A stretch of 64,000 bases of DNA, taken from contig CAMXCT020001425.1 in the NCBI GenBank assembly GCA_947184155.2, positions 18,501 to 82,500 of the forward strand, given 5' to 3'. Positions 16,738 through 61,148 of the stretch are shown piece after piece (within the stretch, counting starts at the first letter, position 1; the number at the start of each line of letters is the position of its first letter). This DNA is from Cladocopium goreaui (Eukaryota; Sar; Dinophyceae; Suessiales; Symbiodiniaceae). Under the pieces are notes generated by a model that was not told the DNA's origin, did not search any database, and saw nothing but the letters and a program-made list of their open reading frames with translations. A program made the position numbers and the translations under genes.

Positions 16738-16789
16738 GTGCAGACAAACAGTACATTAGGGGAACCTAGATGAGGGATACACAACCGCT

Positions 16790-33983: not shown

Positions 33984-34097
33984 TCGAGCAATGAAGGTAC
34001 TGGATTGTGCTGAGCAAAAACAGCAACGGGCGCCATGGCTTGACCATAGTTACAAAGGCAAGCTTGCCACCTCGTCAGCTTTACAAGGCAGGAGTCA

Positions 34098-34187
34098 ACC
34101 ATGGGTACCCCATGGTGACAGTACCTATCCACACCTGTCTGAACAGTGGTTCCCTGTCATGTGTGGCAACCGTGGGTACCCCACGTT
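34098..34187 (-). promoter_or_regulatory. Two intergenic hairpins (copy A)
   Basis: Minus-strand ACCATGGGGTACCCATGGT (34,098-34,116) and a second hairpin AACGTGGGGTACCCACGG (about 34,170-34,187). The stems differ by a compensating A-T to G-C exchange, which supports a real RNA structure between ORFc and ORFd. Role unknown. Confidence 0.55.
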
Positions 34188-34199
34188 GGCCGCATGAGA

Positions 34200-35774: not shown

Positions 35775-35835
35775 ATCGATCGTGATCTTAGCCAGGGGCC
35801 ATGGCTCGGGTAGCGTGGATAAGAAATGCAGTAAT

Positions 35836-38891: not shown

Positions 38892-39107
38892 TCAAGCAAT
38901 GCAGGTACTGGATTGCCTGAGCAAGACAGCAACGGGCGCCATGGCTTGATGTGCTTTGACATCTCACTACACTACCATGCAACGTTTAAAGACACAAAAT
39001 GACAAACAACCCATAACAGGATAATTAGTATAACCGCCCTCCCCGCCTCCCGTCCCATGCTCGATTCTGGATGCTGAGAACATGGTAGCCGCAGCGAGCA
39101 GTAATCA

Positions 39108-39228
39108 ACCATGAGTACCCCATGGTGACAACGCCGCTCAACTTTACTGTCACCAATATATCTTGTGCTGGCAATCCTATGCTTGAAGAGGAGTGGCAGG
39201 CAGTTATCAACCATGAGTACCCCATGGT
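39108..39228 (-). promoter_or_regulatory. Tandem intergenic hairpins (copy B)
   Basis: ACCATGGGGTACTCATGGT occurs twice on the minus strand (39,108-39,126 and 39,210-39,228), each inside a conserved ~45-base block starting TTGARCGGCGTTGTC. Copy E has one such block. Confidence 0.6.
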
Positions 39229-39309
39229 GACAACGCCGTTCAAGTTAGTTGAAGTTGGATGCTGATTGCTCTTCGTGGAACTTGGGTACTTTGTGTCATT
39301 TGGTGCGTT

Positions 39310-40714: not shown

Positions 40715-40820
40715 GATGAGGGAGACCCAGATGCCCTCATTTGCATACAGCGCAGATGTGGACAGAGGGGGCTGGAAAGCGGAGTGTCCGCTTAACCGCC
40801 CAACCAATGCCTCATCCACT

Positions 40821-42151: not shown

Positions 42152-43653
42152 AAGCCATGGCGCCTGTTGCTTTTTTGCTCAGTGCAATCCAGTACCTGCA
42201 TTGCTTGAATGCCACCTGGCCATATAAGTTCAGTGCAACCAAGTGAAGTGGTATGCCTGCCTCAAGAACCCCAGACTCATAATGAGGCACAGGATCTCCT
42301 CCTTTTGCAGGACTATGTGCACAGACTGACGAATACTCTCAGAACTTTGGAAGACACCCACGCCGTGTTGCAGCAAACAGAACTCCTTGCAGGTGTTATC
42401 AATGAGCAAGACTGCAGAGACATTCGCACAGCCTGCTGTTGCAAACGGAGTCTGCGCATTCGAGTAGAAGTCCGTGCCAATGTCACAGAACATGAAGTGA
42501 CAAGTCGACAGCTACAGCTCATGCATGCGAGCGTGCAACATTACCTGACTGAGGACCTTAACACAGCTGACACAAGTTTCCTGCCCAGAACTTCGTTTGA
42601 ACACTTTGAGGATAGACCTGGTCCCTAGACAGAGAAAAATGCTCGCATTCCTGCACCAAGGCAACTGAGCCAGCAACTATGATCACCTGACCGCATCTAG
42701 TGCAGTTGGTTGCAACACCTGCTAAGTTGACCGCTCGAGCTGCTCAACGCTTGCAGTCTGCATCCATGCTGTCGAGTCCTTCGCAAACTCGATCGCATTG
42801 GATTCAGTTTTGAAAGCGGTATACACCGCCTGAGTGCACTGCAGCTCCCATATTTGGGTACAATTTCCCATATCACGAAGATGCATTGCAAGAGCACAGC
42901 ATAGTGGTGCTACTCACAATTTCGATGCAATATGATGATTGGAAAAGCAGTACTGAGCGGACTCTGAGGGTACCTGAGTGCTGTTACCGCGCCGTCTTTT
43001 TCACCTTAGATCACGTTTCACTCTCCTGTTTCACGGCGGTAGTTTTCTCACCACTTTGTTGTGACCCGGCGTTGTCGGTGTTTGCTTCAAAGTGTCAGGG
43101 TGTAATGTCATGCCGTGAACTGCTCGCTGTGATCTCGGGGATCCTGGCTGGGGGGATCCCTGGTTTCCGCATTGAGCCTTGTTGCTTCCCGCACCCTTCA
43201 AGTAGCCCATGATGATTTCGTCTTTGGTCTTGTTGTTGTTTAAGTTTATGGGCCTGCCAACATGACACACAAGTTGTCATCTGCATGCGCCGAGATGATA
43301 ACAAGCTATCACCTCTCGCCTCAACAGATCTGTTTCACCCATAAACTGGAACCTGTCACGTCACGGTTTTGTGGCCTTGTGGTTGTTTTCTTTTGTGTGG
43401 GTTGTTTTGTTGTTTGGGTTTGTTTCGGTGTTGTTTTTGTTTTGGTTCTTTGTTTTTCGGTTTTTGTTCTCCGTTTTTGTTCTTTGGAACGTGACAAGGA
43501 CTTTGGACTATGTATCGGTCCTCTTCCAGTTTACTTTTGCGGCCACTGCAGCATCGGCCCCTGCGTGAATTAAATAATTAATCTCATATGCAACATGCTT
43601 AGATAGATGTTGAACGACCTGGCGGAAGCCACACGGCGTTGGACGGAAAAAAA
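42152..43653 (+). mobile_element. GHH element copy C, 5'-truncated (1.5 kb)
   Basis: Homology to copies A and B begins at about 42,152 (AAGCCATGGCGCC) and runs through ORFd, the conserved 3' block and a GT-rich tract to GGCGTTGGACGG and seven A. No target duplication was found, so the junctions are approximate. Confidence 0.85.
42209..42628 (+). CDS. GHH ORFd (copy C)
   Basis: 139 residues, MPPGHISSVQPSEVVCLPQE onward, closely matching copy B (QDYVHRLTNTLRTLEDTHAV) with an early stop shortening the C-terminus (DRPGP then stop). Probably a dead copy of a real protein. Confidence 0.55.
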   Translation: MPPGHISSVQPSEVVCLPQEPQTHNEAQDLLLLQDYVHRLTNTLRTLEDTHAVLQQTELLAGVINEQDCRDIRTACCCKRSLRIRVEVRANVTEHEVTSRQLQLMHASVQHYLTEDLNTADTSFLPRTSFEHFEDRPGP

Positions 43654-43835
43654 TACCAAGAATCCGACAACTGTTGCAACTGGCCGAACAGTGCACCCAG
43701 GGTAGGCAAATCTGTTATCCACTGTTCTTTGTTTGTGGAAGTTCCGCAACTGTACCAAGACAAACAGATAATAGTACTGGATGTATGCAGAGGTATCAAC
43801 AGAATGAGGGTTTGTCCAATGGGGGGAAGGGTTAG

Positions 43836-44123
43836 CACCTCTTGTCTCACAGATCTTTTTCACCTAACTGGTACCCGTCACGTCACTGCTTTGGGGTTGT
43901 GTGGTTTTCTGTTTTTTGTGTGGGTTGTTTTTGTTTGTGTTTGTGTTTTGTGTTGTGTTGTTTTGCTTCTGGTTCTTTGTGTTTCGGTTTTTGTTCTTTG
44001 ATGACGTGACAAGGGAATAGGACTATGTATCGGTCCTCTACCAGTTTTGCGGCCACTACAGCTTCGGCCATTGCGTGAATTAATTAATTAACGGAAGCCA
44101 TACGGCGTTGGACGGAAAAAAAA
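43836..44123 (+). mobile_element. GHH element copy D, terminal fragment (0.29 kb)
   Basis: Begins CACCTCTTGTCTCACAGATC as at 60,811 in copy E and ends GGCGTTGGACGG and eight A. It has lost ~40 bases before the terminal motif. Near-identical to the end of copy E. No target duplication seen. Confidence 0.85.
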
Positions 44124-44129: not shown

Positions 44130-45301
44130 CCCTTGTTTACCGCCTTGCCCAGAAGCCTTCAGATGCACGTCAAGAAGATCCATCAGAACCTTGGACACCC
44201 CGACAATAGGACCCTGCAATTAGCCTTGAAGAGACATGGTTGGTCTGATCAAGATGCCCGAGCTTGAAACGATTTCGTATGCCCGATATGTCTCGAGCAG
44301 CAGAAGCCGAAGATCGCTAGGCCAGCACAGCTTCGGACCCCGAAAGACTTCAATGATCATGTTTCCTTCAATGCGGCGGAATGGCAGGACACCCAAGGTC
44401 GAAAGCATCACTTCATCGACTCAGCGACCAATTTTCATGTGTCAATCCCATATCAGCAACAGACTTCAGAAGGGTTAATAAATGCCTTTAACACAGCATG
44501 GATAAGATGGGCAGGACCCCCTAAGTCAATAATGTTCGATAGCGCCACTGAAGCCAACAGCGAAAAGTTTGCCAAGTATCTTCAAGAACAATCTATTTCC
44601 AGCTACGTGATTCCAACGGAAGCTCATTGGCAGTTGGGAAGAGCCGAACGACATGGAGCCATTCTTAAGCATATGATCGATAAATTCCACGAAGACCATC
44701 TAATAGGTAGCCCTCATGACTTTGAACAGTGCCTGATCCAACTGTGCAATGCCAAGAACGCCCTGTCCCGACATGAAGGTTTTACGCCAGAGATGTGGGT
44801 GCTAGGCAAGATGAAACCGCTGCCAGGATGTAACACTAATCCATACCTCGACAGTGCCAGTTTTCTAGGATTAGACCTGACCTGACCGGATAGATTTTGA
44901 CGTAGGTGACATGATCATGTTTTGGCGAGCAGGCAAAGGTGTTGAAGAAGGAACCTGGCATGGGCCGGCCAAAATATTAATGATCGAAGGTCGAAATCTA
45001 GTCTGGGTCAGTCACCTGACTCGCCTTTACCGCTGTGCACCAGAACACCTAAGAAAATTGTCTGCAGATGAAGCTCAAGGGGTCTCAAGAAAAGATCTCC
45101 AAACGTTCCGATTGCCAGACAGGAGCGGCACAGGGGTTTTCCAATTCCGTGAATTATCTCAACAAGAGCCACCCCCAAGAACCAGTATCACTGCCAGAAA
45201 TTCTGTCATCGAATCCGATACCATAGTGGGTCAAGCAATTTCCCATGACAATAATACACCTAATGTAAGCACACATACTCCTCCTTTGTCTATAGCCCAA
45301 C
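44130..45301 (+). pseudogene. Copia-2 integrase
   Basis: HHCC zinc region (KKIHQNLGHPDNRTLQLALK, then FVCPICLEQQKPK), catalytic aspartates in HHFIDSATNFHVSI and SIMFDSATEANSEK, and the glutamate in WQLGRAERHGAILK. A C-terminal region with GTWHGPAKILMIEGRNLVWV and HLRKLSADEAQ follows. A TGA at 44,259 and another stop near 44,883 disable it. GHH copy E is inserted at 45,301/45,302. Confidence 0.88.
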
Positions 45302-45532
45302 AAAAAAAAAAGGTTTCTCTCTGTACTCCAGCTCATCAGCCAATACAGGCGTCGTGCAGCAGCGTGCAAAACATCTTGCCCTGAGAGGATGGACTAGCGG
45401 GAGGACAATTATTATGACGCACTTCAGCCTCAGCCTGTTGGACAGTTCCGCTACACGAGGTGTCTTAGGAACGTGCAATCAAGCATCTTTGTTCAATAGC
45501 ACCCGTGCAACTGCCATACGACCCTTTCTTTT

Positions 45533-45549
45533 CCCAAGGGTACCTTGGG
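45533..45549 (+). promoter_or_regulatory. Repeated hairpin, copy 1
   Basis: CCCAAGGGTACCTTGGG followed by TAATGG. The same motif, with GCA in the loop, is at 46,624-46,640 and 48,560-48,576. The 7-base-pair stem is perfect in all three. Confidence 0.65.
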
Positions 45550-45986
45550 TAATGGAAAAGGTTACAGTGACCCGCAGCGAGTTGCTTAGACTCCTTCGGA
45601 CTAATATAAAGTACAAAAAGCACAGTAGTAATCACTTGCTGTCTTTGAATTCTCGTTTTCTGTCTGTCCGTAGAAAAGCCCTGTAACACGCCATATTCTC
45701 CGACCCTCCGAGGTACCTGCGCATTGTAATCCATAATCACAAGCTTCTAGGTTAGTTTCTAGTTTTTAGAGTTTTATTTGGTTCGAGCCTTTCTATCCGG
45801 TGCTGTACCAACTGGTTAGGTGCAGTAGTTCTAGCTGTGTAACACTGCCCTTCAGCGTTATGTTCCACTCAAATTGTTAAGTTTGGTGAATGGAGCACCT
45901 CACAGTAAAAACTAATGGATGACACTTCCCTGTCCACGCTCAGATGCCAGCAAATGCGGGGTAGTTATTGCTGACTCATAAATCCC

Positions 45987-46007
45987 AGGGAAGGATATAT
46001 CTTCCCT
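45987..46007 (+). promoter_or_regulatory. Hairpin with 7-base loop
   Basis: AGGGAAG - GATATAT - CTTCCCT, a perfect 7-base-pair stem. Loop size matches the ORFc/ORFd intergenic hairpin. Confidence 0.5.
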
Positions 46008-46623
46008 GCTTTAACCATAATGGTAACCATCAGCACACTACCCAAGCGCTCAACCTCTAATCTCCCACTTTTGTAGCCAACCCTACTGGTGGATGTTCCA
46101 TACAATTGGCTCAATACCTAAAGGTTGCTCCCAGGAATAACTGTTGTCCATTTGGCATACGTCCAGTTTACCGCATTGAAGAGGGCCCTTTATCACGATA
46201 TACATGACACACCCTTGCTCCTGATAGTTATTGCCGTGTTGGAAACATCGCCATGCGGAGCAACGCCTATAATTAGAGTTGTCTCTCGCTATCACCTTAC
46301 CAGCCAGCGCACTATCTCAGCTTTTTTGTAGAACTACCATCAATGTGGATATAAGCAATTCTGCAGAATCGCCCAATGAATGAGGGTTGCTCCCGGGCGA
46401 TGGACATCACTTCCCACACGACACCGCAGAAGATCAATGGCCATGCACCACTGACGCAGGACCGAGAAGTACCACGGTGTTGCCTCCCTCGTACAGGGTG
46501 ATAGAGCCGGTAGGACAGTCAGTACCGCCCAGTTCAAGTAGCTAGTGCTCTCGCCGCTCATTGCACATCATTCTCAGAGTTTGATAGAGCCCAAAGGGCT
46601 AGCAGTGTTGGACAGCTGCTGTT

Positions 46624-46640
46624 CCCAAGGGCACCTTGGG
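46624..46640 (+). promoter_or_regulatory. Repeated hairpin, copy 2
   Basis: CCCAAGGGCACCTTGGG then TAATGG, preceded by TGTT as in copy 3. Confidence 0.65.
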
Positions 46641-47985
46641 TAATGGCGAGATATCACTACTACTCTAATATGCGGTACACTGCTCTGTACCGGTGCCATC
46701 AGAGTGTTCTGTACTTAATTCGCGCCGAAACAGCCTTTGCCTTGCCCCATATGCCAGATGGCGGAATGCAGCTAGAAGTATCTTTGGCCAGCAAGTCCTG
46801 GCGCTTGTGTCCTGGACGAAGTTTAACCTGAGCATCAGGCATTGATTTACGATAGCTTGCATCCAGGCGCGCCAAGTAAGCAGCTCAAAAATTGCTTTTT
46901 ACCGCATGGTCTCAATGTTCTTACCAAGTCTCGGGCATACCCAGTTGGATTTTTCTTGATTGCGGGCCCTTTGCCAATACTGAGCTATCAAATAATTACT
47001 CAAGAATATTTCAGAAGTTGATCAACTCTTCAGACATGCTGAAAACAGCTGCTGCAATGACTGGTGCTTCCTGATTACTGGTGACATAGCTCCGGCCAGC
47101 ATCTTGCCATTAATTTATCATTGCTTGTGTCCTTTTCTTTGGTTGCAAAGCTCAACAAATTGATTGCAGAATAGTTTATCTCCTTGTAACCTTGAGGGAC
47201 TATGCAGGACCCCAGTTACTGGACAATGATAAGGACTAAAACTCTGCGTGAAATGGAAAGTTCACTCCCTTAGAGCAGCCCATTGTGCGTTAAGTAGGCA
47301 GCACGCTCAGAGGATTGCTTGTTTCGGCCAAGGCCCATGGACTAAGGGAACAGTCTACTGGTTACGTGAGGGGCACCTTCATGGAAGTACGTCCCAAAAT
47401 CCAAAACACAGAGAAGCACTAACTCCATGGGCTTCCACAATCAGGGACTTGTAGCCATTGGCTTCTGTCTACAGTTAAATGTTTCCAATGCCAGCCATTA
47501 TCCCCCTTGCCTCAATATATCCAACTTGACCAGTGGATGTAGCTGAATAGGACCGCCCATTATGCTTAGCAACCGTCCGCCATTTTAAAGTACTCATACC
47601 CTATCAGTGTACCCTTATCCCTGGTTCTGAGCCAAAGGGGTGTCTATCTAGTCTTTGACTGCCCTTAAGTAACTCTCTGGGTGATGGCACGACACCAAAT
47701 ACCACCACAATATAGGAACGGCTTAAACATTTTACCCACTACTGCCTCAGCCCAATTTAGGTCCCCCAAGTATGCAGGACGCTGGGAACAGCCGAATAAC
47801 CACTAGGGCCCCAAAGAATACTATTGGCAGGTTGCAGTAGGAGGTGCTCCAAGTGCATATTACTTGTGTATTTTTGTCATTGCGTCCGTGAATTTTGGCT
47901 AGAGCTTACCCGCCTCTGTCTCCTGTCCACTACCCTGTTTGCTGCAGGACGTCCATAGTGTTGTACAGCATTTCGGACCTTATCC

Positions 47986-48255
47986 ATGCACAGGGCAGCA
48001 CGTAGCGCAACTGCTGACCATGTTCGTGCCTTACTCCAGCAGCTCCTTTTTGTCCATCGTGTTAAACTTTTGGCCATGCGATTGCAGTACCAGTTGGAGG
48101 AAACCATGGATGACCTGGACGACATAGGGTTTGACGAGCAAGTACTAAGCGGAGTATTACGAACCGCCCACCTTGAGATCAGTGGATTTATCGGCCGTTG
48201 TGACCGAACGATGCTCACGACGGAACAGCGCATCCTGCGTATACTACTGCGATGA
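47986..48255 (+). CDS. GHH ORFa, small helical protein
   Basis: 89 residues: MHRAARSATADHVRALLQQL through TMDDLDDIGFDEQVLSGVLR. Predominantly helical and similar in style, not clearly in sequence, to ORFd. No other copy in the window covers this part, so coding potential rests on composition only. Confidence 0.4.
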   Translation: MHRAARSATADHVRALLQQLLFVHRVKLLAMRLQYQLEETMDDLDDIGFDEQVLSGVLRTAHLEISGFIGRCDRTMLTTEQRILRILLR

Positions 48256-49207
48256 ACTGCTGAGCAGCAATGTACAGATAGAAGTTTTTAACTTGGCTGT
48301 GCTGAGTGCCCACCTGCCGCCAAGAAACAGTCAAGCAGTCAGCAATCCATACTCCCTCGAAACCGCCATAGACCCCTCCAACAAGTGAGTCGTCACATGT
48401 AGGTATACCCCCATTCTTAAGGGATAGAGCTGATTGGAACTGCTTCATGCACTCACAACCAACTAAGTAAGTAGTCCCTCATGCCCTCACCCCCCACTGT
48501 GCCCCCCACATCCTGCATAGTAGGAACACGACACATGTGTCTACCATCCCCCTACTGTTCCCAAGGGCACCTTGGGTAATGGTGGGGGTTCAGCTCTGTT
48601 TTCACTCTACATGTTAATCATCTCACATGGTTCGCACGCTCGTGAGTATCACCCTGGTTCAAACATCCTGACGGTCATATGTCCTCTCAACAATGCGTCC
48701 TCTTTGCTAACAATGCTCCTCAGGGCTTACCGTCTCTAGCATATCTTGCACCGATAGCCACCCACCTGTGTCATGCTTTGCTGCCCATGCCACGTGCTCC
48801 GCTCCTTGCTACTCCCCTCTGTGTCTTATGCCTTTGCAACTGAACAACAATGCACCCCACTCCAACCCAGACACCGGCAACATGTTTCATACACTTCCCA
48901 CCACAGCAATGGTTGTCTTTTTGTTTAACTTATGCTTGAACCGAACATGACTTACTGTCTCCGTCAGTAGCCATTGGCTCAAACTGCGAGGACACCGCAC
49001 CTGCATAAGCCAGAGTTGCCTGGGTCCTCCTCGTCTCCAGTTTTATTTCATTTGCTCGCCCGTTCATACCTTCAAGCCAACACGGGGTTCTCGTTGTTTG
49101 GCCGCTGCCCGCAATAGTGAGTGGTTCCTGTCGTTTGGTCCAACCATACGCCACGCAATAGCCTCCACTCCGGAGAGTGCTGCCACTGCAGGGTACCTGT
49201 TGCTGGT
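48256..49207 (+). other. GHH intergenic region a-b
   Basis: No ORF of substance. Contains hairpin copy 3 and C-rich stretches (48,480-48,550). Confidence 0.45.
48560..48576 (+). promoter_or_regulatory. Repeated hairpin, copy 3
   Basis: CCCAAGGGCACCTTGGG then TAATGG, between ORFa and ORFb; identical over 25 bases to copy 2. Confidence 0.65.
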
Positions 49208-50779
49208 ATGCCGAAGCCAAATCCCTTTCCGTCTGGCGCAATCAGTGTTTCCGATCAACACTTACTGGACATATCGGCTGGAATGGATTGGGACATGGAA
49301 GATGCCAACAACGTTCGATTCCTCGCAGTGAGGGGCACAATATGGGTAGGAGATTGTCAAACAACATATAATTTTACGCTGGTGGAATATCAATTGTATA
49401 TCGACGAGGTACCATGGCTCATTTTTTCTACTCTTGCTGATGCCCTTGAGAAAGAGTTTGAACCCAACTTTTGGGGTACCGTCAACTACGGTCGGAAAGA
49501 GCGGTGGGGTTTCCTGGAACCACCCTGGGATGGAAAAGCTTACGGTGTTGCACCACCGTACACCAAAATTCGATTATCCATCTTTAATGATGTCGCTCAT
49601 ACCATGCGTGTCGTGCAACCATTTGTGTGGAACCATACCCACCTGAAAGTTCACCCGAACGGGGCAATGATCTTCCATGAAGAAAAAAGATTAGCTTTCC
49701 TGCTGCCTTTGATCGTGGAAGCCCACGAACTGCTACCGCCTAAGCCACTGTTCTGGGTTAATGATGACAATACCATCCCATTGTGGAGAACCACCCTGTG
49801 GTTGCATGACGAAACTATACAGTGGTTAGCTGAGACAGGAGAGTCGTACCCGCATGAATTGAGAGATGAAATTCAGCCACGCATTGCTCAGCTCAAACCT
49901 TCTCAGCATGCGAAGCGTACACAACCTCCGCCCCCACCGCTACCAACCAGGTGGACGGAACGAACTGCAGCGAAACAGCCAGTGCAAACACTGCAAGCAG
50001 CCACACCACCGGATGCTAAGGGTACTCAGAGCACGCCACAACAAGTAGCTGACCGTGAACGGCAATATATGGAATTGCAGTCTATTATTGCTCAAGCAAA
50101 CCAACGGACGTTAGCAGACAGCCGACCTGCGAATGTCAAGCAAACCCAAAAACCAGCCAATTTGCTGACCGCAAGTCAACAAAACACAGACAACGCGGCA
50201 ACCGCCGCACCGACCAATCCCAGTACGGGCGTGGGGGCAGAAGCCTCGGCTCCATCACAAAGCAGTCCGCCAGCTAAAATCAGTGCACAATCGTTATTTA
50301 ACCAAAGACCAGGCCCACCATCGATCCTACCCCCGAACAAGCCGCAAACGGATACCCCGGGTACCGGCGTGTTATCCTCCGACCTCCACTCCGCAACTCA
50401 CAGCAAAGATGACGAGCAGCAGCAGCCTCCAGAGCAGCCCGCAGGTCACGACGACGCACCAACAGAAGAATCGTCGCCTGCAGATACACCCAATGCATCG
50501 CCAGAGACTCAGGCAACTGACACCGCTGGTGCTAGCAGCCCTGAGCCTGCCAGCGATTCCATGCAGGATGTTGACCTCACCGCAGCGGACATCCCGACTT
50601 TACAGAACATGGAGAAGGCAGCCTGTGAAAGAGTGGTCTTCCATCAAACGCGGCTCATCAGTGCTCGCGAGCATCTGACGCGTATCAGGAAGCGTCTTAA
50701 AAGAATGCAAGATGATCAATCATCAGGCACTCCGCAAGCCTCGCCTGCCACAGATATGGAAATGGAAATTATTGACTGA
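49208..50779 (+). CDS. GHH ORFb, unknown 523-residue protein
   Basis: ATG at 49,208 (MPKPNPFPSGAISVSDQHLL) is preferred over the upstream open extension. Residues ~1-235 look globular with aromatic-rich strands (TLVEYQLYIDEVPWLIFSTL, LFWVNDDNTIPLWRTTLWLH). Residues ~240-460 are low-complexity Pro/Ala/Thr/Gln-rich. The last ~60 residues form a charged helix (LTRIRKRLKRMQDD), likely a coiled coil, and an acidic end. The layout (folded head, disordered linker, coiled coil) resembles structural or nucleic-acid-binding proteins, but I recognise no family. Confidence 0.65.
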   Translation: MPKPNPFPSGAISVSDQHLLDISAGMDWDMEDANNVRFLAVRGTIWVGDCQTTYNFTLVEYQLYIDEVPWLIFSTLADALEKEFEPNFWGTVNYGRKERWGFLEPPWDGKAYGVAPPYTKIRLSIFNDVAHTMRVVQPFVWNHTHLKVHPNGAMIFHEEKRLAFLLPLIVEAHELLPPKPLFWVNDDNTIPLWRTTLWLHDETIQWLAETGESYPHELRDEIQPRIAQLKPSQHAKRTQPPPPPLPTRWTERTAAKQPVQTLQAATPPDAKGTQSTPQQVADRERQYMELQSIIAQANQRTLADSRPANVKQTQKPANLLTASQQNTDNAATAAPTNPSTGVGAEASAPSQSSPPAKISAQSLFNQRPGPPSILPPNKPQTDTPGTGVLSSDLHSATHSKDDEQQQPPEQPAGHDDAPTEESSPADTPNASPETQATDTAGASSPEPASDSMQDVDLTAADIPTLQNMEKAACERVVFHQTRLISAREHLTRIRKRLKRMQDDQSSGTPQASPATDMEMEIID

Positions 50780-51416
50780 TCCAACCTACAGCCAGCTAGC
50801 ACAGCGTGCACCTGCCTGTGTGAAACTACCTGATCAGTGCCATTCCTAATGCCGCCTACCCCACAGATGCGCCAAGAGAAAAGCAGCTGCGTGCCAGGGT
50901 GATACCCCCTAAACCTACCTTATGGGAGAGTACCCACTCAAGCATGACCCCCACAAATCAGAGTAAGGGGATTTATGGGGACTCTTTTCTACCAAGCTGT
51001 TTTGGGTAGGCGTGTGCCCTGGGTCCTGTCACCGTCAGTCATCTCTACTCCTGTCAAACTCACATCTACTTTGGGTAAAGAAGGTTACATGAATTGTCAT
51101 TGTAAATTGTTTGCACTGCAGCTTTTGTGGCCCCACTAGTTTTGATAGCTTTTGTTCAGCCTTCCGACATCAATTCGCATACCAAGGTGATAGTCAAACC
51201 TTGTTTGTTTTGTTTCCTCATTTGTTTCACTTCCAACGACTGGCCCCGCAACGGGGAACCCCGACCCCGGGTGCCGGGTGTTCGGGTTTTCCCTAGTTTT
51301 GCCAATCCAGTTGACACATTTTGCACTCCCTGCCCTGAGAGTATCCACTATTTCCGGCTTGTCACTTGACACCTGACACCCGGGTACCGGTTGTTCAGGG
51401 TCAAGCTTGCGCCAGC
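50780..51416 (+). other. GHH intergenic region b-c
   Basis: Leader of ORFc with small palindromes (CCCCGCAACGGGG near 51,244; TGGGAGAGTACCCA near 50,924). No ORF supported. The frame of ORFc is open from 51,366 but without ATG until 51,417. Confidence 0.45.
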
Positions 51417-54400
51417 ATGTTACAGCAGCTTATGACACCGAACAGGTTCATTTCACTGGCGTCGCCTGACCCTGACGACTCAGATACAGATATCGAACCA
51501 ACAGAACCAACCGTCCCAGACAAAACAGTCGAGGATGTGTCAGTGGACAGCGAAACAGAATACTTTGACGCCCTCGAGACAGATGATGACGTTCCATATT
51601 TCCAACAAGGGACTGAGCCTCCCCCAAAGGAGAAGTGGGAAATTGCCGCACCTATCGATTTCTTCGATGTAAATGGGGTCTCACAAATAAGCCACCAGCT
51701 CGATGAACTTTTCCTCTCGGAAAAAGAAGTTGCAACCCCACTCGGCATGGACGATATCAAACAAAGGTGGAAATGGGCCGATGTCGGCTCTTGTCGAATG
51801 CCCCGGTCACCCCTGACATATCCAGCAATCATGGTGGACGAAGGGAATGGAATCCGACGACCAGCAGCCAGCCAGGTCCATCATAGGAAACTCTTCCAGT
51901 GGATAATGGATAATCTCTCCTGGTTGCCACAGTATGCCACCGTGTATGTGTATGTGGACAACCGCAAACTGGCAGGCACTGATCCCCCAGCCTACTGGCC
52001 GCATTTCGCTCCCTGGATCAAAGGCAGATGTACAGTCACAACCCCCTACAGGGAAAAAACGACCGCCATCCATTTTCCCATCAATGCTGACACAGGTTTG
52101 CATCAGGTCCACTATACCTGGGCTGGTGCTGCAGCCTTGGAGGCGCTGTGTCTAATGTTTCCCACTGTAAATTTTGCACTAATCGACTCCGACTGCGTGC
52201 CGACCTCACTGTATGAGATAGCCGAACTAGTCAACCTTATGACGGACAAGGCAAGCAGAGCCGAAGCAATGCAACACAACACAATGGCCAGCTCTAACCA
52301 GTGCCCACCGGCAGTGCTCCTTTGCACGGAAGCCAAAGCTGAACTCAATGCCGGCTTGATCATTGTGACAGGGCATACCCCGACCGATAAAGTTGATGTC
52401 AATATGGACCAAGCCACCCAGGAAGCATCCATGCCCCTGACTGCTGCCCAAGGCTCCGCTCCTAGTGATGCACCCGCCCCGAAAGCACGAAGAATCGCCC
52501 ACCCCGCCAACCGCAGATCAGCAGATGATTGGGTCACCGCACTCGAAGATAGCCGAGCCAGTTTCCTAGCCACAACCACTGTGCCAGAAGACCCCGCTGA
52601 GGCGATGAGAGGCGGACTACTCCTCACCCCTCTACTAGGATGTAAAGCCAGAACTCCGCTTGACTGGACACATGCATGGGCAATGCTAGGCGAATGGGCT
52701 GGAGCTATTGCATTCCCCATCCCGGAGCAAGGAGAATGGCCGCGTCATGGAGATGGCCGATACCTAAGACCGGACTTTGTTGAGCGAACCCCGCCCTTCC
52801 TTACCTGGGCGCGCCCTATATTCGAGCAAGGTGCACTCTCCCCAATGTCTGTTTTCCCCGCCGACTTTCCCATCCTCTGTCTCCCAGGAGACAAGTTGTT
52901 CCAGAGCAAAGAGCTAGCCATAGGGTGCCTGCCACCGATCGTACATGCCTTCCATGGGAGTAAAGTAGGCCTGGGACACCAACTTCAACAGTGGCAAAAC
53001 AAAGGGTTGCAACCGCTTGCTGTGTCGCTCATAGGAGTCGAGGAGGCACCCCCGCTATGGACACACCCCACAGGCTGCGATTTCGTTAGAGGGAGTAAAA
53101 TAGTCGCCAAGCCTCATGTCCCGCAAAACCGCAGTCTTACCAAGACGCAGGTGTTGCTGCTCCAGAGCCTTTGGACGCCAGTGGAAGCCCCCAATAGCAA
53201 CAATGACCACACTCCCTGGCCCAAGGCTTGCGAGCCTGCCCATGTCTTCTGTGGCCAGCACGCGAGCCTACAGCTCCCTACTGCCCAAATCCTCCCTCTC
53301 CTGGAAGCACTGCAACGACGACTGGGTATTGACCCTAGCAACGCAGAACTAGCCACCAATGAAGTCCTTGCTAGCCATGCAGATCCTAAATACACTGATT
53401 GGAAAATCACTGTCATGGATAATACCTCCTGGCAACTCAATGACGCTGACCCAGGGTCCCTGGACGTTCAGTGCACTGGGTTGGGTGGAGGAGAACTCGA
53501 TGACGATTGGGACATACTGCTCGCTTGCAAAAAGGAAGCGCATGTGTATGGGCCATCCCTTAGTAAACAAGACGATTGGAATGCAAGAGCTGGCACAATT
53601 GCAGGCACTGCCCACACGCAAGAATATTTGCTGCTACACATTGCCATGTTTCCCATAGGTGCACACACCTGGTGCCGTGTCTTAGGAATGCCCAGTGCAA
53701 ACCAATTGCAGGCACAGATCATCAGTCGAGCCATGAAACTGTTGCGTTTCTGTCCTATCACCCCAGCACATAGGAAACCGCCGTGGCCAGGGTACATGCA
53801 TGGCCTGCGGCTTTTCACTAAGCTATTAGTGGCCCATCCGCTGGTCGGAGTATGCCTGCCCCCTGAAATCCGCCCGGTAGATCTTCTGAGATTAACAGGA
53901 TACATGGTAGGCGCTCTCTTCATTCGAGGACACAGTGCTGGCTCGTACGCAGGGATGGTATGGGAAACCATCCTCTCGGAATTCCCAGACATTGAAGGCA
54001 AAGCCGTACTAGCAGCCATTGCTCTGCCACCATCGCTGCTTACGACACACAGCATGTCTCAGCATCGACAGATCCACCTCATTCACCATACAGATGACAA
54101 GCTTTGCGTATGGAACCCGTCAAACTATGACATTAAACTGCTCAGGCAACGGGGCTTTGCAATCACGCATGTCACAGGATGGAGAGCATACCTAGGCACT
54201 GCACAACACAACTACTCGCACTGGACACGAGTTGCTCTCGCAGAGGGACGACCTGATATGGCGCAGCTGGAAGGCATCCCAGGCGTGCTCCCATTCGAAG
54301 TGTACTCACAGGCCCCCCTCCGCCTGATCTCATGGTGTAGCTTCGAGCTCCCAAAAACTGCCAAAAAACTCCTGCGCGAATTAGCTGAAATGTGCGAGCT

Positions 54401-57400
54401 CCCTGAGACAACGACACAGGCACTTGTCACCCACATTGCTGTTCATAACCCAGAGGTAAAAACGGAGCAAGAGGCAACCCAATACTTAGCCACATTGGCA
54501 ACTGTCACCATTTCGTCAAGGACCAAGTTGCTCAACTATACCACCATGGTTCAACATTTCCTTGGCACCTTGCAATTGCCCATGGCCGTCTACATGTTAG
54601 ACTACTATTTGCCCATGCTCAGCCCCAACGAAGGCTATAATGAAACAGGGTTAACAATGCAGAGTGCAGGACCCATCCGTCAACCTTGGCAACCCATTAC
54701 CTTCGAATTCCTCTTTAAAGGCAGCGAATTTGGACACTGGAAAGTCAAAGGCGGACAAGATGCATTTGCGTTCCGACATCCAAGCCTTGGCAAAACTGAA
54801 GTGTACAGCCTCCTAGCCAGCGATGCGCACCATCACAAAGTTAGCCCCATTGGCACGGGTAGGCTAGTTGCCATGGTAGGCACGACAGAAGAACCAGCCG
54901 ATGACGATGGAGACCTTCAGATACTATTTGGGTTAGTTCTCGCCATCACGCCACGCACATCCAAAAGCAAAGATGAGCTGCCTGCCTCCCGCATATACAG
55001 ACAGTGCAACCCCAGATTCATCGAAATAGCCTTTCTCTCAGGGCCAGCCATTGAATTTTTTGCACAAGAACAGTTAGAAGCCCTTCAAGACTGGTATGAG
55101 GCCTCCGGCCAGCTCCTGGATCCCATTGATGCTACCGTCCAAGGGCAGAAAAGCCCGGTCCCAGGGACCTTCTTCCTACACACAATGTGGATGTTCGGAT
55201 GTACCAAGCCTACCAGAGAGGTTACCGCTGTCGCGCAAACCCCCCCGTGCAGATACCACCTGGGATTAGGCATCTACAATGTCCAAACGGCAGTGGAAGG
55301 AATGGATGGCAACAAAAGATCACATTTTTTGCATTTGTGCGGCCAGTTGCTACGCCTAGTGCTCATCCCATGTCATGTAGAGGGCGAGCTTCACCCCTGG
55401 ACCCGCTCCACTGCACTATCCTTTGCCGCAGAGCTCGATGGGCATGTCTTGGGCACACTCTGCGCAGTGACAATGGCGTTGCTTACCAATCGGTTAGACC
55501 TGTGTATCCAAGGGCTTTTCGGAGCAGGCAAGTCGAAATCGATGGCAATCCTCATCCTAGCTTTGATTGAAATCGATGCCACTGACAGCCTCAAAATACT
55601 ATTCATCTGTAAAGAGAACTCCGGCACGAGATCCTTTGCTGACCTCCTCCTATGGCTCGACCCCCCGTCGGGGGTGTTTGGGCGCATAGGTAGGCTAGTG
55701 GGAGACCAAGAACGCAATAAAAGTAGCTACTCCCACACGAAATTCGACATACACCCGAGAGAAAGAAGGCAAATGCTGAATAAGTGTCAGTTAATTCTAG
55801 CCACCGGAGGAACGGTAGCCCAGGATCTGACCATGCAATGGTCCACAATGGGTGGCTTTATGCAAGAGCTCTCCCTCCTAGTCATTGATGAAGGCCAGCA
55901 ATATGGCACTGACCGAGAAATTGCAGTCATCAGCTTACTGAGACAGCAACCCCTGGTCTTGTGGACAGGAGACTCTGAGCAGACACCCGGCGGCATTGAT
56001 CGTGCAGCTCGCAACGCGAAACGATCACGACAGCTCCTGTTGGCCAAGAAGCATGGGCTACGAAGTGACCGCAATTATTATATGCCAGCCAACCTTGCTG
56101 ATGCAATGATCCGACTACTAGATGGTTCGGCCAATGAAGGTTTGGCGGCTCTCAGTCAAATCCTCAAACGAGGACAGCCCACTCTAGGTCAGCTATGGAC
56201 AAGTCACCTCTCGCCGCAGGATGCAGAAGACCTTAGTGCAGCCAGCACTGTTCTCCCAGGCCTAAGAGCCCAATTTGAAGCAGCCCAGCCCAATATGCAA
56301 CGGTACTCCCGTTTTGTGGATTCAGAACTGCTGGCAGGCACCGCTATTAACTTTCCACGGTCCCTCGTACGCCTCGCCTGGATCTTGCAGCATGCCGCTA
56401 CTCTCCTACCCATGGCTGGAGACATACAAGCAGTTTTAAATTCCCAGACCGCCGGAGTGAGTGACATCCATGCTTGGGGGTTAATGCTTCCCTCTAGCTC
56501 TAGGGTTAGCCCTGTAACATACCATGCAGTGGTTGCAGTTCGCTATCCTGATCTCTGCAGACAGATCAATGGCCTGTGGGAACTGGGAAGTTTTGCCTCG
56601 GGAGGACTTCCCGACAAGCCACCAGGGTTCCAACTAGTGCTTTGGGATACTAATGCTAGGATCAACGGGTTGGTAGCGACAGACCTTGAGACGCTTGTGG
56701 CAGAAGTCCTCACCCCTTTCCCGCACAACGCTGGATTTGCAGATGGACTTTTTACAATGACCACGGCAACAGATCACAAGAACAACTTGAACCGCTCCGT
56801 GCTCAAAAGGGATTATATCCGCACCCTGCGTGTAGAAACAATAGCCAATTCAGCAGGAGGAACAGCACAAGTATCAATCGTAGCTCAGCCCAGTATAGGA
56901 TTCTTGAACACCAAATATTACTCCAACGGCTCCCCTACAGAAGACACCGAAGACTGCCTCGGCAGAATCACTGTAGGACTCACCCGATCCAAATCGTTAA
57001 CTTTGCTTGTCTCCCCGTTAGACATGATGGGACTCATGGGCATGGCGCAGGTGATTGCGACAATTGCATATGGAATCCGGGGCCTCCGGAGAGGAAAAAC
57101 GACATGGAGTTGGCCTGACTTTAACCCTGACCCAGTTCAAGAGAATCTAGCACAGTTAAGCCGATGGTCACTCAACGCAGCACCAACCTGGGAGTTCCCT
57201 CCACTTGCAATCGCCAACCAATATTACGACCAGCAAGCCGACGAAGTGAAGCGAGCGAGATACCGCTTAATATTGGTGCGTGGATCGGACCTTCGCTGGT
57301 TAAACAGGGAGCGTCTCCAAGAAGTCCAAACAGGCTTAGCATCTCACCACAAGTGGCTCCCCGAGCAGGATCTCCCTTTTACTGAAGTTGTCCTGTATGC

Positions 57401-59546
57401 CTACGCGGCTGATCGCACACCCTTTCCCACCTACGTGTGCCTGCCCTCAGGACTGTACAAAGCCCGCACCGGGCAAGTAGTAGCGCAGACGGGCCCAGGA
57501 AAGGAGATCCTGTCCCTGCCTGGTATATACTTCTTTGATGGATGGAGATTACACCCTAAGTTGCCGATCCCAGACCACTTGCCACGCGCAAAAGAGGCGC
57601 CAGTTCAAGGTACCGCTCTAACTGCACCTGCACCCGGTACGGAACCCAAAAGGTCGCCTGAAGAAGAAGCGAGAGACATCCTTGCAGTGGCTGCCAAGAA
57701 TCAGCCCGAAGATGGGCCAAACACAAGAAGAGCAGCCGTCCGCGCATGTAAGTACTTAAGAGCTATGGTCAACCAATATGAGTCCACCATCACCGCAGTA
57801 CATCTAGCTGCCCGCACACATACACAGAAAAGCAAGGGCACGGTAGGACCAGCAGTTGACTACCGCCCGCAAGGAGAAGCCCTCCCGGTCATCTCCGCAG
57901 ACCTGACCTCCGAATTACTGCATTGTTTGTCCACGCTCCCAGACCCATGGCCCCTGGCCAAAATCACCATAGACATGGAGAAACCGAGCCAGTGGGTCTC
58001 AAAGTTGTGCAGACTCTACTTCGCTGATGAGTATGCCAAGCGAACGATTGGACTACCCTCACGTCGGCATGTCCCGGACATTGCGGGTGCACTTCGAGCA
58101 GTCCAAGCCATCCTCCCCAAACTCGAAGTCAAAATGATTGAAGTCTTAGCTGAATGGATGGTCACTCTGTTAATGCCAGCATCGCACGTATTGGAAGTGA
58201 GGGCACCTCACCTTTCCTTTATGATGCTCAAGGAATACTGGTTTAGAGAGCTGTACCTAGGTCTGAAAGTCACAGCATCCTTCGACCGCTCCGAATCATA
58301 CACCAGGGTAATCGATGGTCAGGTAAGATGTATCACGCCTGAGGTTAAACCGCAGAATTTGCAGGTCATTTGGAATGTGCAGTTTATCACAGTTTTTGTG
58401 CCGGCATGGATGATCCCGCCCGTTTACCATAGCCTGCGCAGAGAAAGCATCAAAACCGCTAGCTCTGCAAGTCCCATTGGTGTCCAGTCGGTCCGCCCTA
58501 CCTGGTTTGAAGACACAACACCCAAGGATACCGCATCCCAACCACCTCAAGACCCTCCAAAAGAACAGCCTCAGCCACTGCACGGGCTAAAATTAGTTAT
58601 TAAAGAAGAGGTGTTACCGGCGAATGACCAACCAGAGTTCCCATCACTCGAACTGTTGGCTGCCAGAGGCCTTCTAGCACCCGACACGTGGAAGTGCAAA
58701 CGTGCGCAAGTTAGCCTCAAAGCAACCATTGATGTCCCTATGCTGGGCACAATCATAGAGGAAAATGGCGATGGACTCCTTGAAGACTCCCACATGCCGG
58801 TGGGATGGCCATTGCACATTGATGGTGCTGTCAGACAATGTTGTATTCACCGAGCCGCTAGCCTGCAAGAATTAGACGATATGCTCAAAGAATATGACAT
58901 GAAAAGGGATTCGGTTGAAATCAACCATGATGCGCCTCAATGGTCCCATCATGCAGTATGGAACCGCAAGTATATGGAACCTAAACCAGGATATACACTG
59001 GCACAACTATGGGCTGACTCCGAACCTGCCATAAGCAAGAAAACGACCACGTCATATGAAGTTCACACAAATGACGTCTTGCGTGCAGTAGCGGCCATTC
59101 AGTATCTCCCATCCCCCCTGCCACCTGATAGCCCCTTCCTAAGAGCGTTAGGGACAACAGCTGCTCTCAAAGCCCCGCCGCAAACTGACACCCTAGCGCA
59201 AAGAGCCTTGGAGGAATGGGAACGCACCTTGTGTGAAAACAAGGCAGTGGCAATCCTCGCAGAGGTACAAGCCGGCCGACCAACTATAATCCACAAGGAT
59301 GGTGGCGAAATGCTCATTGCCATTGTCCTTGACAGGCCACTAACGGAAGCGAAGGAACTAGTTGATAATCCTGCAGCATTCACTCGCGAAATGACGCGGA
59401 TCCTGCGCGACAAACAAACCCACCCACTCATCGCCCAAATGATGAGACCCGCGGAGAGCAGTGATCCACCCCCCGCCACTGCGACAGCCAGTAGCGCCAG
59501 TAGCAGTGGAGAACCTCGCACTACCGCACACGTGCAGTTCCAGTAA
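51417..59546 (+). CDS. GHH ORFc: glycosyltransferase-like, alpha/beta-hydrolase and SF1 helicase giant polyprotein
   Basis: About 2,709 residues from ATG at 51,417. (1) Residues ~95-520 look like a GT-A/GT8-type glycosyltransferase: NFALIDSDCVPTSLYEIAEL has a DxD (257-259), then ELNAGLIIVTG (311-313) and VHAFHGSK (510-516). (2) Residues ~700-1000 look like an alpha/beta-hydrolase: RGHSAGSYAG (Ser 840), HHTDDKLC (Asp 893/894), YSHW (His 935). (3) Residues ~1360-1880 are a superfamily-1 helicase: Walker A GLFGAGKSKS (Lys 1372), LATGGTVA, Walker B LLVIDEGQQYG (Asp 1491, Glu 1492), WTGDSEQ, and motif VI GLTRSK (Arg 1857), closest in form to UPF1/DNA2-like enzymes. (4) Residues ~2187-2709 are a conserved region also in copies A and B. 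No RT or polymerase motif seen. Uninterrupted over 8.1 kb. Confidence 0.85.
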   Translation: MLQQLMTPNRFISLASPDPDDSDTDIEPTEPTVPDKTVEDVSVDSETEYFDALETDDDVPYFQQGTEPPPKEKWEIAAPIDFFDVNGVSQISHQLDELFLSEKEVATPLGMDDIKQRWKWADVGSCRMPRSPLTYPAIMVDEGNGIRRPAASQVHHRKLFQWIMDNLSWLPQYATVYVYVDNRKLAGTDPPAYWPHFAPWIKGRCTVTTPYREKTTAIHFPINADTGLHQVHYTWAGAAALEALCLMFPTVNFALIDSDCVPTSLYEIAELVNLMTDKASRAEAMQHNTMASSNQCPPAVLLCTEAKAELNAGLIIVTGHTPTDKVDVNMDQATQEASMPLTAAQGSAPSDAPAPKARRIAHPANRRSADDWVTALEDSRASFLATTTVPEDPAEAMRGGLLLTPLLGCKARTPLDWTHAWAMLGEWAGAIAFPIPEQGEWPRHGDGRYLRPDFVERTPPFLTWARPIFEQGALSPMSVFPADFPILCLPGDKLFQSKELAIGCLPPIVHAFHGSKVGLGHQLQQWQNKGLQPLAVSLIGVEEAPPLWTHPTGCDFVRGSKIVAKPHVPQNRSLTKTQVLLLQSLWTPVEAPNSNNDHTPWPKACEPAHVFCGQHASLQLPTAQILPLLEALQRRLGIDPSNAELATNEVLASHADPKYTDWKITVMDNTSWQLNDADPGSLDVQCTGLGGGELDDDWDILLACKKEAHVYGPSLSKQDDWNARAGTIAGTAHTQEYLLLHIAMFPIGAHTWCRVLGMPSANQLQAQIISRAMKLLRFCPITPAHRKPPWPGYMHGLRLFTKLLVAHPLVGVCLPPEIRPVDLLRLTGYMVGALFIRGHSAGSYAGMVWETILSEFPDIEGKAVLAAIALPPSLLTTHSMSQHRQIHLIHHTDDKLCVWNPSNYDIKLLRQRGFAITHVTGWRAYLGTAQHNYSHWTRVALAEGRPDMAQLEGIPGVLPFEVYSQAPLRLISWCSFELPKTAKKLLRELAEMCELPETTTQALVTHIAVHNPEVKTEQEATQYLATLATVTISSRTKLLNYTTMVQHFLGTLQLPMAVYMLDYYLPMLSPNEGYNETGLTMQSAGPIRQPWQPITFEFLFKGSEFGHWKVKGGQDAFAFRHPSLGKTEVYSLLASDAHHHKVSPIGTGRLVAMVGTTEEPADDDGDLQILFGLVLAITPRTSKSKDELPASRIYRQCNPRFIEIAFLSGPAIEFFAQEQLEALQDWYEASGQLLDPIDATVQGQKSPVPGTFFLHTMWMFGCTKPTREVTAVAQTPPCRYHLGLGIYNVQTAVEGMDGNKRSHFLHLCGQLLRLVLIPCHVEGELHPWTRSTALSFAAELDGHVLGTLCAVTMALLTNRLDLCIQGLFGAGKSKSMAILILALIEIDATDSLKILFICKENSGTRSFADLLLWLDPPSGVFGRIGRLVGDQERNKSSYSHTKFDIHPRERRQMLNKCQLILATGGTVAQDLTMQWSTMGGFMQELSLLVIDEGQQYGTDREIAVISLLRQQPLVLWTGDSEQTPGGIDRAARNAKRSRQLLLAKKHGLRSDRNYYMPANLADAMIRLLDGSANEGLAALSQILKRGQPTLGQLWTSHLSPQDAEDLSAASTVLPGLRAQFEAAQPNMQRYSRFVDSELLAGTAINFPRSLVRLAWILQHAATLLPMAGDIQAVLNSQTAGVSDIHAWGLMLPSSSRVSPVTYHAVVAVRYPDLCRQINGLWELGSFASGGLPDKPPGFQLVLWDTNARINGLVATDLETLVAEVLTPFPHNAGFADGLFTMTTATDHKNNLNRSVLKRDYIRTLRVETIANSAGGTAQVSIVAQPSIGFLNTKYYSNGSPTEDTEDCLGRITVGLTRSKSLTLLVSPLDMMGLMGMAQVIATIAYGIRGLRRGKTTWSWPDFNPDPVQENLAQLSRWSLNAAPTWEFPPLAIANQYYDQQADEVKRARYRLILVRGSDLRWLNRERLQEVQTGLASHHKWLPEQDLPFTEVVLYAYAADRTPFPTYVCLPSGLYKARTGQVVAQTGPGKEILSLPGIYFFDGWRLHPKLPIPDHLPRAKEAPVQGTALTAPAPGTEPKRSPEEEARDILAVAAKNQPEDGPNTRRAAVRACKYLRAMVNQYESTITAVHLAARTHTQKSKGTVGPAVDYRPQGEALPVISADLTSELLHCLSTLPDPWPLAKITIDMEKPSQWVSKLCRLYFADEYAKRTIGLPSRRHVPDIAGALRAVQAILPKLEVKMIEVLAEWMVTLLMPASHVLEVRAPHLSFMMLKEYWFRELYLGLKVTASFDRSESYTRVIDGQVRCITPEVKPQNLQVIWNVQFITVFVPAWMIPPVYHSLRRESIKTASSASPIGVQSVRPTWFEDTTPKDTASQPPQDPPKEQPQPLHGLKLVIKEEVLPANDQPEFPSLELLAARGLLAPDTWKCKRAQVSLKATIDVPMLGTIIEENGDGLLEDSHMPVGWPLHIDGAVRQCCIHRAASLQELDDMLKEYDMKRDSVEINHDAPQWSHHAVWNRKYMEPKPGYTLAQLWADSEPAISKKTTTSYEVHTNDVLRAVAAIQYLPSPLPPDSPFLRALGTTAALKAPPQTDTLAQRALEEWERTLCENKAVAILAEVQAGRPTIIHKDGGEMLIAIVLDRPLTEAKELVDNPAAFTREMTRILRDKQTHPLIAQMMRPAESSDPPPATATASSASSSGEPRTTAHVQFQ

Positions 59547-59997
59547 GCCAGTTGAGGTAACGTAGAGTACCCAAACTTCCCATCCATGCATTCAGCCTGT
59601 AACTCGACCTAGGTTGAGCGGCGTTGTCACCATGGGGTACTCATGGTTGATTACTGCCCGCTCAGATTACCTTTGTATGCAACATGCCGGAGCCAATATG
59701 GGACGGGAGGCGATGGAGGGCGGGTATAATAATTCTTTTCAGGGTGTTTAAGTTGTTTTGTTCGTGTTGTTCTACCTTAATTGTTGTATGGTAGTGTAGT
59801 GCGATGTCAAAGTACATCTAGCCATGGTGCCCGTCGCTGTTTGACCTGCGCCCAACCAATCTTTCAACCGGCCCAATGATCTGCACTACACCTCCTCATG
59901 CCGCTTCTCGACCATGGTTGCAACACGCTTAGTGTCAGCTGCATGCTCTGAGGATTTAGGTCTACACATCAACCTGTGGACGACTTAGACCTTTGGA
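59547..59997 (+). other. GHH intergenic region c-d
   Basis: Holds the conserved block TTGAGCGGCGTTGTC with the hairpin at 59,629-59,647, then a GGGACGGGAGGCG block shared with copy B. Confidence 0.6.
59629..59647 (+). promoter_or_regulatory. Conserved intergenic hairpin (copy E)
   Basis: ACCATG-GGGTACT-CATGGT: 6-base-pair stem and 7-base loop, at the same place in copies A and B, where it is doubled. Conserved position suggests a role in expressing ORFd, such as internal initiation or RNA processing; this is inference. Confidence 0.6.
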
Positions 59998-60399
59998 ATG
60001 GAGCGACCAACTCCCACCAAAGACGCCGCTGTCCATCGACTTGCAAAGTCCATCACTCAAATGACCCTCTGCCAGGTCACTACCAGTGAAGTCGATGATG
60101 CCACCAAACTTCTGGAGAAAGCCCGACAGAAGCTCCAAGGCATCCAAAACATCCCACCCCAGAGGGTCAGTGACATTGAGGCGACTATACGCCAACTCCG
60201 TCAGATTGGCTGTATCCTGGACAGTTGTACTATATCTGCCAGTTACGAAGTAACCCAGGCACAGAAAGCCATACTGCAGCTACACCATACAGCCAGGGGA
60301 GCCAGCACATCATCAGAAGAACTCAATGCACAGATATCACCACGCACAGATGATGAGTACAATCTCCCATACCATGAAGACGCATTGCAAGAGCACTAG
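59998..60399 (+). CDS. GHH ORFd (copy E, divergent type)
   Basis: 133 residues, MERPTPTKDAAVHRLAKSIT through ATIRQLRQIGCILDSCTISA. Helical with heptads; ends LPYHEDALQEH just before the conserved 3' block. The protein differs from ORFd of copies A-C although the flanking DNA is shared, so two element subfamilies carry different genes at this position. Confidence 0.55.
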   Translation: MERPTPTKDAAVHRLAKSITQMTLCQVTTSEVDDATKLLEKARQKLQGIQNIPPQRVSDIEATIRQLRQIGCILDSCTISASYEVTQAQKAILQLHHTARGASTSSEELNAQISPRTDDEYNLPYHEDALQEH

Positions 60400-61132
60400 C
60401 ACAGTGGTGCCCCTCCCAAACTTTGATGCAGCATGATGATTGGAAAAGCAGTTCTGAGCGGACTCTGAGGGTGCCCTGAGTGCTGTAGCCGCGCCGTCTT
60501 TTTCACCGTAGATCATGTTTCACTCTTCTGTTTCACTGCGGTAGTTTTCTCACCACTTTGTTGCGACCCGGCGTTGTCGGTGTTTGTTTCAAAGTGTCAG
60601 GGTGACTGTCATGCCATGAAGGCTGCCCTCTGTGATCTCGGGGATCCTGGCTGGGGGGATCCCTGGTTTCCGCATTGGGCTTTGTTGCTTCGCGCACCCT
60701 TGAATGGCCCATGGTGATTTTGTGGTTCTTTCGGTTGCTTTTGTTAAAGGGCCTGCGTCAGCATGACACATAAGTTGTCATCTGCATGCGCCGAGTTGAT
60801 ACTAAGCTATCACCTCTTGTCTCACAGATCTTTTTCACCTAACTGGTACCCGTCACGTCACTGCTTTGGGGTTGTGTGGTTTTCTGTTTTTTGTGTGGGT
60901 TGTTTTTGTTTGTGTTTTGTGTTGTGTTGTTTTGCTTCTGGTTCTTTGTGTTTCGGTTTTTGTTCTTTGATGACGTGACAAGGGAATAGGACTATGTATC
61001 GGTCCTCTACCAGTTTTGCGGCCACTACAGCTTCGGCCATTGCGTGAATTAATTAATTAATCTAATATGCAACATGCTTGGAAACATGTTGAACGACCTG
61101 GCGGAAGCCATACGGCGTTGGACGGAAAAAAA
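60400..61132 (+). other. GHH conserved 3' region and terminus
   Basis: Contains TGGAAAAGCAG, GACTCTGAGGG, the palindromic GGGGATCCTGGCTGGGGGG then ATCCC, a GT-rich tract (60,870-60,975), AATTAATTAATTAA and the terminal TGGCGGAAGCCA hairpin before GGCGTTGGACGG(A)7. All parts recur in copies A-C, and the last third in D. Probably the sequence recognised by the reverse transcriptase that moves it. Confidence 0.75.
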
Positions 61133-61148
61133 TTGTCTATAGCCCAAC

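Follow-up and report, generated by a model that had tools for sequence, protein, structure and literature searches.

LINEs are usually a few kilobases long and hold one or two ORFs. In dinoflagellates, SymbioLINE-Dnmt is described as carrying a DNMT ORF upstream of an ORF with Exo_endo_phos and RVT_1 domains, with target duplications, a conserved 3′ region, and purifying selection on both the DNMT and the RT (PMC5890265). It was published with two ORFs and without poly-A tails, and its main text contains no occurrence of the word helicase (PMC5890265). Giant size, several extra ORFs and mostly 5′-truncated copies are reported for Terminons, Penelope-like elements of bdelloid rotifers, along with a Penelope-type RT, telomeric attachment and a hammerhead motif (PMC6431247). 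An SF1 helicase within a non-LTR retrotransposon is described for insect LINEs (TRAS of the R1 clade, Jockey), where it was acquired from viruses (PMC6338049).

Here we analyse a 64,000-nucleotide stretch of Cladocopium goreaui DNA (the window; contig CAMXCT020001425.1, positions 18,501 to 82,500) and an insertion within it that very probably derives, with loss of its 5′ part, from a non-LTR retrotransposon (LINE) of giant size, 27 kb or more. By its RT and endonuclease, the element is an APE-type LINE. Its RT is accompanied by an AP-like endonuclease, a part that the window copy lacks, and its copies have a fixed 3′ end and variable 5′ truncation. In ORF1 and ORF2 the element resembles SymbioLINE-Dnmt, to which we liken it by description and not by sequence; unlike the published scheme, it has further ORFs (ORFa-ORFd) after the RT, and its copies end in 7-9 A (PMC5890265). 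Compared to Terminons, the RT and an AP-type endonuclease share one frame, and Rfam gave no match at E ≤0.1 across 45200-61200. Compared to the insect LINEs, the helicase motifs belong to an ORF of their own, 2709 aa long and situated after the RT, and no viral relative was found in viral_contigs. A Terminon or other Penelope-like identity was rejected, as the RT frame carries an AP-like endonuclease and GIY-YIG was not among the matches listed. No description of a LINE with such downstream ORFs was found in the literature searched, which was mostly without subscription papers and preprints.

The ends of the insertion are defined by the following features.

45302..61132, plus strand: truncated LINE copy, 15,831 bp, recognised from the duplication at both ends and from longer relatives
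45286..45301, no strand: left copy of the 16-bp target duplication, TTGTCTATAGCCCAAC
61133..61148, no strand: right copy of the 16-bp target duplication
45302..45311, plus strand: A tract, internal in longer copies; truncation point
61090..61132, plus strand: common 3′ terminus, ending in GTTGGACGGAAAAAAA (loci L001-L008)

Positions 45302-61132 are one insertion, which interrupts a copia-type gene. The window contains two exact copies of TTGTCTATAGCCCAAC, at 45286-45301 and 61133-61148, and no others. In a chance control of 5000 random 25-bp pairs, which retained pairs on repeats or with overlapping positions, a common stretch of at least 16 bp was seen in one pair and of at least 10 bp in five. 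When the insert and one copy of the duplication are removed, the flanking copia frame becomes a single frame of 454 aa. The downstream copia frames match RVT_2 (4.8e-07 for 62141-63442, 0.0022 for 61067-62089), neither reaching the curated cut-off. At its 3′ end, the window copy reads GTTGGACGG followed by 7 A, and an identical terminus with 7-9 A was found in all eight loci compared (L001-L008). These terminal A runs may be encoded rather than added. A sequence-only reading of the window had proposed a mobile, A-tailed unit with an unusual gene set, a perfect 16-base target duplication and four same-strand intronless ORFs. Each of these points holds: the duplication is exact and found nowhere else in the window, the tail is short, the four ORFs are conserved, and the unit has many copies. 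RNA folding of three 3′ termini gave z values of -1.17, -0.91 and -2.12. A search for a spliced-leader relic returned four matches to GGCTCAAG or CTTGAGCC, all outside the element.

Further members of the family lie upstream of the insertion in the window.

32678..35834, minus strand: diverged 5′-truncated relative, with a 19-bp duplication at 32659-32677 and 35835-35853
37458..40714, minus strand: diverged 5′-truncated relative, with a 16-bp duplication at 37442-37457 and 40715-40730
42152..43653, plus strand: 3′ portion of a further copy ending in the shared terminus; left boundary taken from the alignment
43833..44123, plus strand: very short 3′ fragment of the family with the same terminus, 97% identical over 259 bp

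For neither of the two plus-strand pieces did a search of the 20 kb upstream reveal a duplication of more than 8 bp. Where duplications were found, their length varies (16, 19, 16 and 18 bp in four copies). Since the copies in the window end alike and begin at differing places, they point to 5′ truncation.

We then compared the insertion with its relatives in the genome (1.17 Gb, 6,202 contigs, with the window in C1425). A 5′ probe was taken from the first 700 bases of the window copy; 40 of its 308 candidates were scored, and 30 of these 40 matches were fetched. CACCCAGGGGAAA lies upstream of the A tract in 28 of the 29 fetched loci other than the window's, and in most of the same-strand loci compared the homology persists through all 1.5 kb of upstream sequence that was retrieved. 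Because these 28 loci continue upstream of the break, the window copy is 5′-truncated; and, as the left A run lies in the interior of longer copies, position 45302 marks where this copy was cut short rather than where the element starts. The remaining locus, L032 (C2578:81455-82153), differs in the DNA that precedes this internal A tract, a situation thus seen in two of the 30 fetched loci. The A tract is perhaps a favoured stop for reverse transcription, or else an alternative RNA start.

The RT peptide was found upstream, on the same strand, of 20 of the 40 5′-probe matches, and downstream of none of them within 30 kb, when compared against all 150 scored RT matches. Distances from the 5′ edge were 4.0-4.15 kb in 18 of these 20 cases, 4.76 kb in one and 13.05 kb in one, the last with a DIRS-like element in between. 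In C1299, three frames of 763, 409 and 1102 aa (L054 406-7730) separate the RT from the downstream module; we take these to be DIRS-like, and Pfam gave no match in the two that were scanned.

These results bear on the proposal, made in the sequence-only reading, that the insertion is a complete element of a new class without RT, or else a virus-like RNA replicon copied into DNA, and that a LINE does not fit. In favour of this idea, the window copy taken alone has no recognised RT and its ends are perfect, and L032 also differs upstream of the A tract. However, nearly all other fetched loci extend further upstream, half of the scored 5′-probe matches have an RT there, and a copy that includes the C-terminal half of ORF2 is bounded by duplications of its own (C2223). 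In addition, searches of viral_contigs and genome_contigs turned up no relatives, and no RNA-virus polymerase was recognised. The sequence-only reading had itself said that an RT in longer copies would speak against a new class. Longer copies do carry an ORF with APE, RT and RNase H, the endonuclease and RT lying upstream of the window's truncation point, and we consider both the RT-less class and the replicon barely credible.

The gene order of the LINE, pieced together from several copies, is ORF1, an overlapping ORF2, a spacer of ∼4.8 kb, ORFb, ORFc, ORFd and the 3′ UTR. The spacer holds three conserved palindromes and ORFa, and the 3′ UTR that follows ORFd has a fixed end with a short A run. 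Within ORF2, the AP endonuclease comes first, then reverse transcriptase, RNase H and a further domain. Upstream of the window's break point in C2223 is a frame with similarity to RNase H (RVT_3, 5.5e-4). The peptide just before this frame matches at least 150 places, and open frames around the matches reach 2,797 codons, many having 2,060-2,097 (150 of 798 candidates scored). In C2424, ORF2 is 2,094 aa long and free of stops, with Pfam matches to RVT_1 (2.5e-14) and Exo_endo_phos (1.5e-10) and a sub-threshold match to RVT_3/RNase H (0.0053). The last part of ORF2 is a domain running CEVDLKGSFYELVRRLG...VWLHDGFLV, with polymerase-like motifs (L056 919-1800, minus strand), for which Pfam returned nothing relevant.

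The ORF1 frame precedes and overlaps ORF2. It carries SLFDGVG, SPCQDLTPAG and ENAG, which we take to be C5 methyltransferase motifs. A 241-aa piece of ORF1 matches PF00145 weakly (0.03), while a 766-aa stretch had no Pfam match at 0.1; of the 31 PDB matches at E ≤1, 29 are DNMT3 proteins, the best at 0.0081. The DNMT piece sits in open frames of up to 2,492 codons, often of 2,422-2,426 (150 of 579 scored). These matches are weak, and suggest that ORF1 has a C5-DNA-methyltransferase-like domain.

To what extent do the ORF1-ORF2 part and the downstream module belong together? Of 150 RT matches, 52 are followed on their own strand by ORFb at a distance of 5-12 kb and none is preceded by it; for two RT matches, an ORFb in the opposite orientation lies no more than 12 kb away. 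Around the DNMT matches, identified by weak matches and motifs, RT is 4-7 kb downstream in 72 of 150 and upstream in none, and ORFb is 8-20 kb downstream in 29 of 150, again with none upstream. All three occur in this order at 28 of the 150 DNMT matches. One caveat here is that the lists for RT, ORFb and DNMT each comprise 150 matches, from 798, 496 and 579 candidates, and hence missed pairings are to be expected; some RT copies may also lack the downstream module. In C2223, the copy starts within ORF2 (L053, about 6080) and runs for 20.1 kb until it reaches the common 3′ end (L040), with the 18-bp duplication GATCTGAGATATCGACCA on either side. This insertion, between its own duplications, contains the end of ORF2 as well as ORFa-ORFd, showing that the two parts moved together.

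An alternative is that there are two partners, a DNMT-LINE and an ORFa-ORFd element using its RT in trans, with the fused copies arising by read-through (3′ transduction). The published two-ORF scheme of SymbioLINE-Dnmt (PMC5890265) would fit such a partner, as would the long spacer between ORF2 and ORFb. The spacing is nevertheless fixed at many loci, the C2223 copy moved as a single unit, and ORFb, ORFc and ORFd are constrained about as strongly as ORF1 in its single comparison (see below). We regard a two-partner arrangement as quite improbable and retain a single LINE.

In C973, sequence of the family covers no less than 27,102 bp between 188300 and the 3′ end (161199), with 178001-184699 known from search matches alone. 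Adding an ORF1 of 2,426 codons, we infer a full length near 30 kb, with the 5′ end probably lying beyond the sequence reached.

In the window copy, the downstream module is laid out as follows, each ORF start being the first ATG that fits the homologues.

45533..45555, plus strand: palindromic box 1, 23-mer CCCAAGGGYACCTTGGGTAATGG, kept in 9 of 9 copies
46624..46646, plus strand: palindromic box 2, kept in 9 of 9 copies
47986..48255, plus strand: ORFa, 89 aa
48560..48582, plus strand: palindromic box 3, kept in 9 of 9 copies
49283..50779, plus strand: ORFb, 498 aa (an ATG at 49208 would make 523 aa)
51417..59546, plus strand: ORFc, 2709 aa, with SF1-like helicase motifs
59998..60399, plus strand: ORFd, 133 aa

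Three CCCAAGGGYACCTTGGGTAATGG boxes are observed in the spacer where none are expected, and each of the nine copies examined has all three, allowing up to two mismatches. The spacer around them is 83-89% identical to that of C973 over its first 2.7 kb. It is a guess that the boxes act in expression of the downstream ORFs. ORFa is 89 aa long in eight of nine copies and 138 aa in C5923, and Pfam had no match for the frame enclosing it. ORFb consists of an N-terminal part, a P/Q-rich part and a basic C-terminus; it has 109 homologues at E ≤0.001 among 7995 scored, and no Pfam match.

ORFc has nine long homologues, one of which is 61% identical over 99%. Its helicase part has 304 homologues at E ≤1, and nine aligned sequences agree throughout in the Walker A, DEGQ and TRxK columns. 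A piece of ORFc matches the Pfam family DEAD at 8.2e-05, with 22.8 bits against a cut-off of 26 and hence sub-threshold. The helicase assigned to this protein by the sequence-only reading is in keeping with that match, whereas the glycosyltransferase and serine hydrolase assigned along with it found no counterpart among profiles: Pfam returned no relevant match for the two pieces supposed to hold them. Residues S857, D911 and H948 are invariant in six sequences and fit a serine-hydrolase triad, judged from the GHSAG...D...H motif, and the glycosyltransferase reading rests on a DxD motif. Searches of PDB sequences with ORFc and with the helicase alignment gave nothing relevant. Predicted structures of residues 1-1166 and 1361-2545 have mean pLDDT values of 27.8 and 30.1, making these models useless. 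A Helitron, also dismissed in the sequence-only reading, was rejected: target duplications are present, and Rep/Pif1 found no match in ORFb and ORFc at E ≤1.

ORFb, ORFc and ORFd are under purifying selection. We computed Ka/Ks by the Nei-Gojobori method with the window copy as reference (C2424 for ORF2), frame breaks not being included in stop counts. For ORFc, seven genomic copies gave 0.28, 0.12, 0.13, 0.16, 0.50, 0.14 and 0.18, and the two minus-strand copies in the window gave 0.09 and 0.06 at Ks of 1.15 and 0.96. Ratios for ORFb are 0.13-0.27 in seven of eight genomic copies; the eighth, C5923, yielded nothing longer than 100 codons to compare in ORFb or ORFc. For ORFd, three copies gave 0.06, 0.17 and 0.12 and the others mostly none; in C2223 the ratio is undefined, with zero synonymous changes. 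The single ORF1 comparison gave 0.10, and ORF2 gave 0.49 in C2223 and 0.12 for the part in C1299. Ratios from close copies with low Ks are noisy, and the window copies, with Ks near 1, provide the strongest evidence.

Since Ks is near 1 while Ka/Ks is 0.09 and 0.06, ORFc is both old and constrained. These values argue against ORFc and its neighbours being recently captured host genes carried as passive cargo, as does the fact that the nine long homologues represent clusters of 1 to 801 members. Capture of genes by transposons is known in general (PMC6431247), but for this locus we rate a recent capture as very improbable and keep to ORFs that belong to the LINE.

Several of the copies are damaged. 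Among eight other genomic copies viewed, C1299 is the only one with ORFc in one unbroken stretch; frame breaks or rearrangement affect C2223, C973, C3035, C3601 and C3646, the comparison covers C583 partly, and C5923 yielded none. In C3601, the ORFc value of 0.50 goes with one stop in 1,066 codons. ORFb has one stop each in C2223 and C3035. The C2223 copy has decayed, given the three stops in its ORF2 and the Ka/Ks of 0.49 relative to C2424.

From what is established for LINEs in general, we infer nicking and target-primed reverse transcription for this element: ORF2 would nick the target and reverse-transcribe the element RNA from its 3′ end, and reverse transcription would often halt early, leaving copies like that in the window. 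More speculatively, ORFb may package the element RNA, and the ORFc helicase may aid the copying or handling of an RNA of ∼30 kb; that it serves as a processivity factor is speculation that we hold to be rather unlikely. We offer somewhat less hesitantly, though still as a tentative possibility, that a LINE of ∼30 kb has turned into a multi-gene replicon, with its own methyltransferase (acting on DNA or RNA), an RT and further proteins encoded downstream, among them a helicase that would allow a single RNA this long to be copied, with expression driven by internal signals such as the palindromes. When a LINE reaches 27 kb or more and has conserved genes after its RT, the question arises of how such an RNA is translated, packaged and copied. 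The element also makes sense of predicted proteins that lack names and form large clusters of up to 801 members.

Two observations concern the surroundings of these copies. The 3′ flank of the C1299 copy (L042) matches ORFc residues 2311-2404 at 93%, which suggests that one member of the family can land inside another. Elsewhere in the window, arrays of a ∼120-bp tandem repeat at 16773-17458 and 24491-25841, roughly 80-90% alike, flank weakly copia-like frames at 17833-24238.
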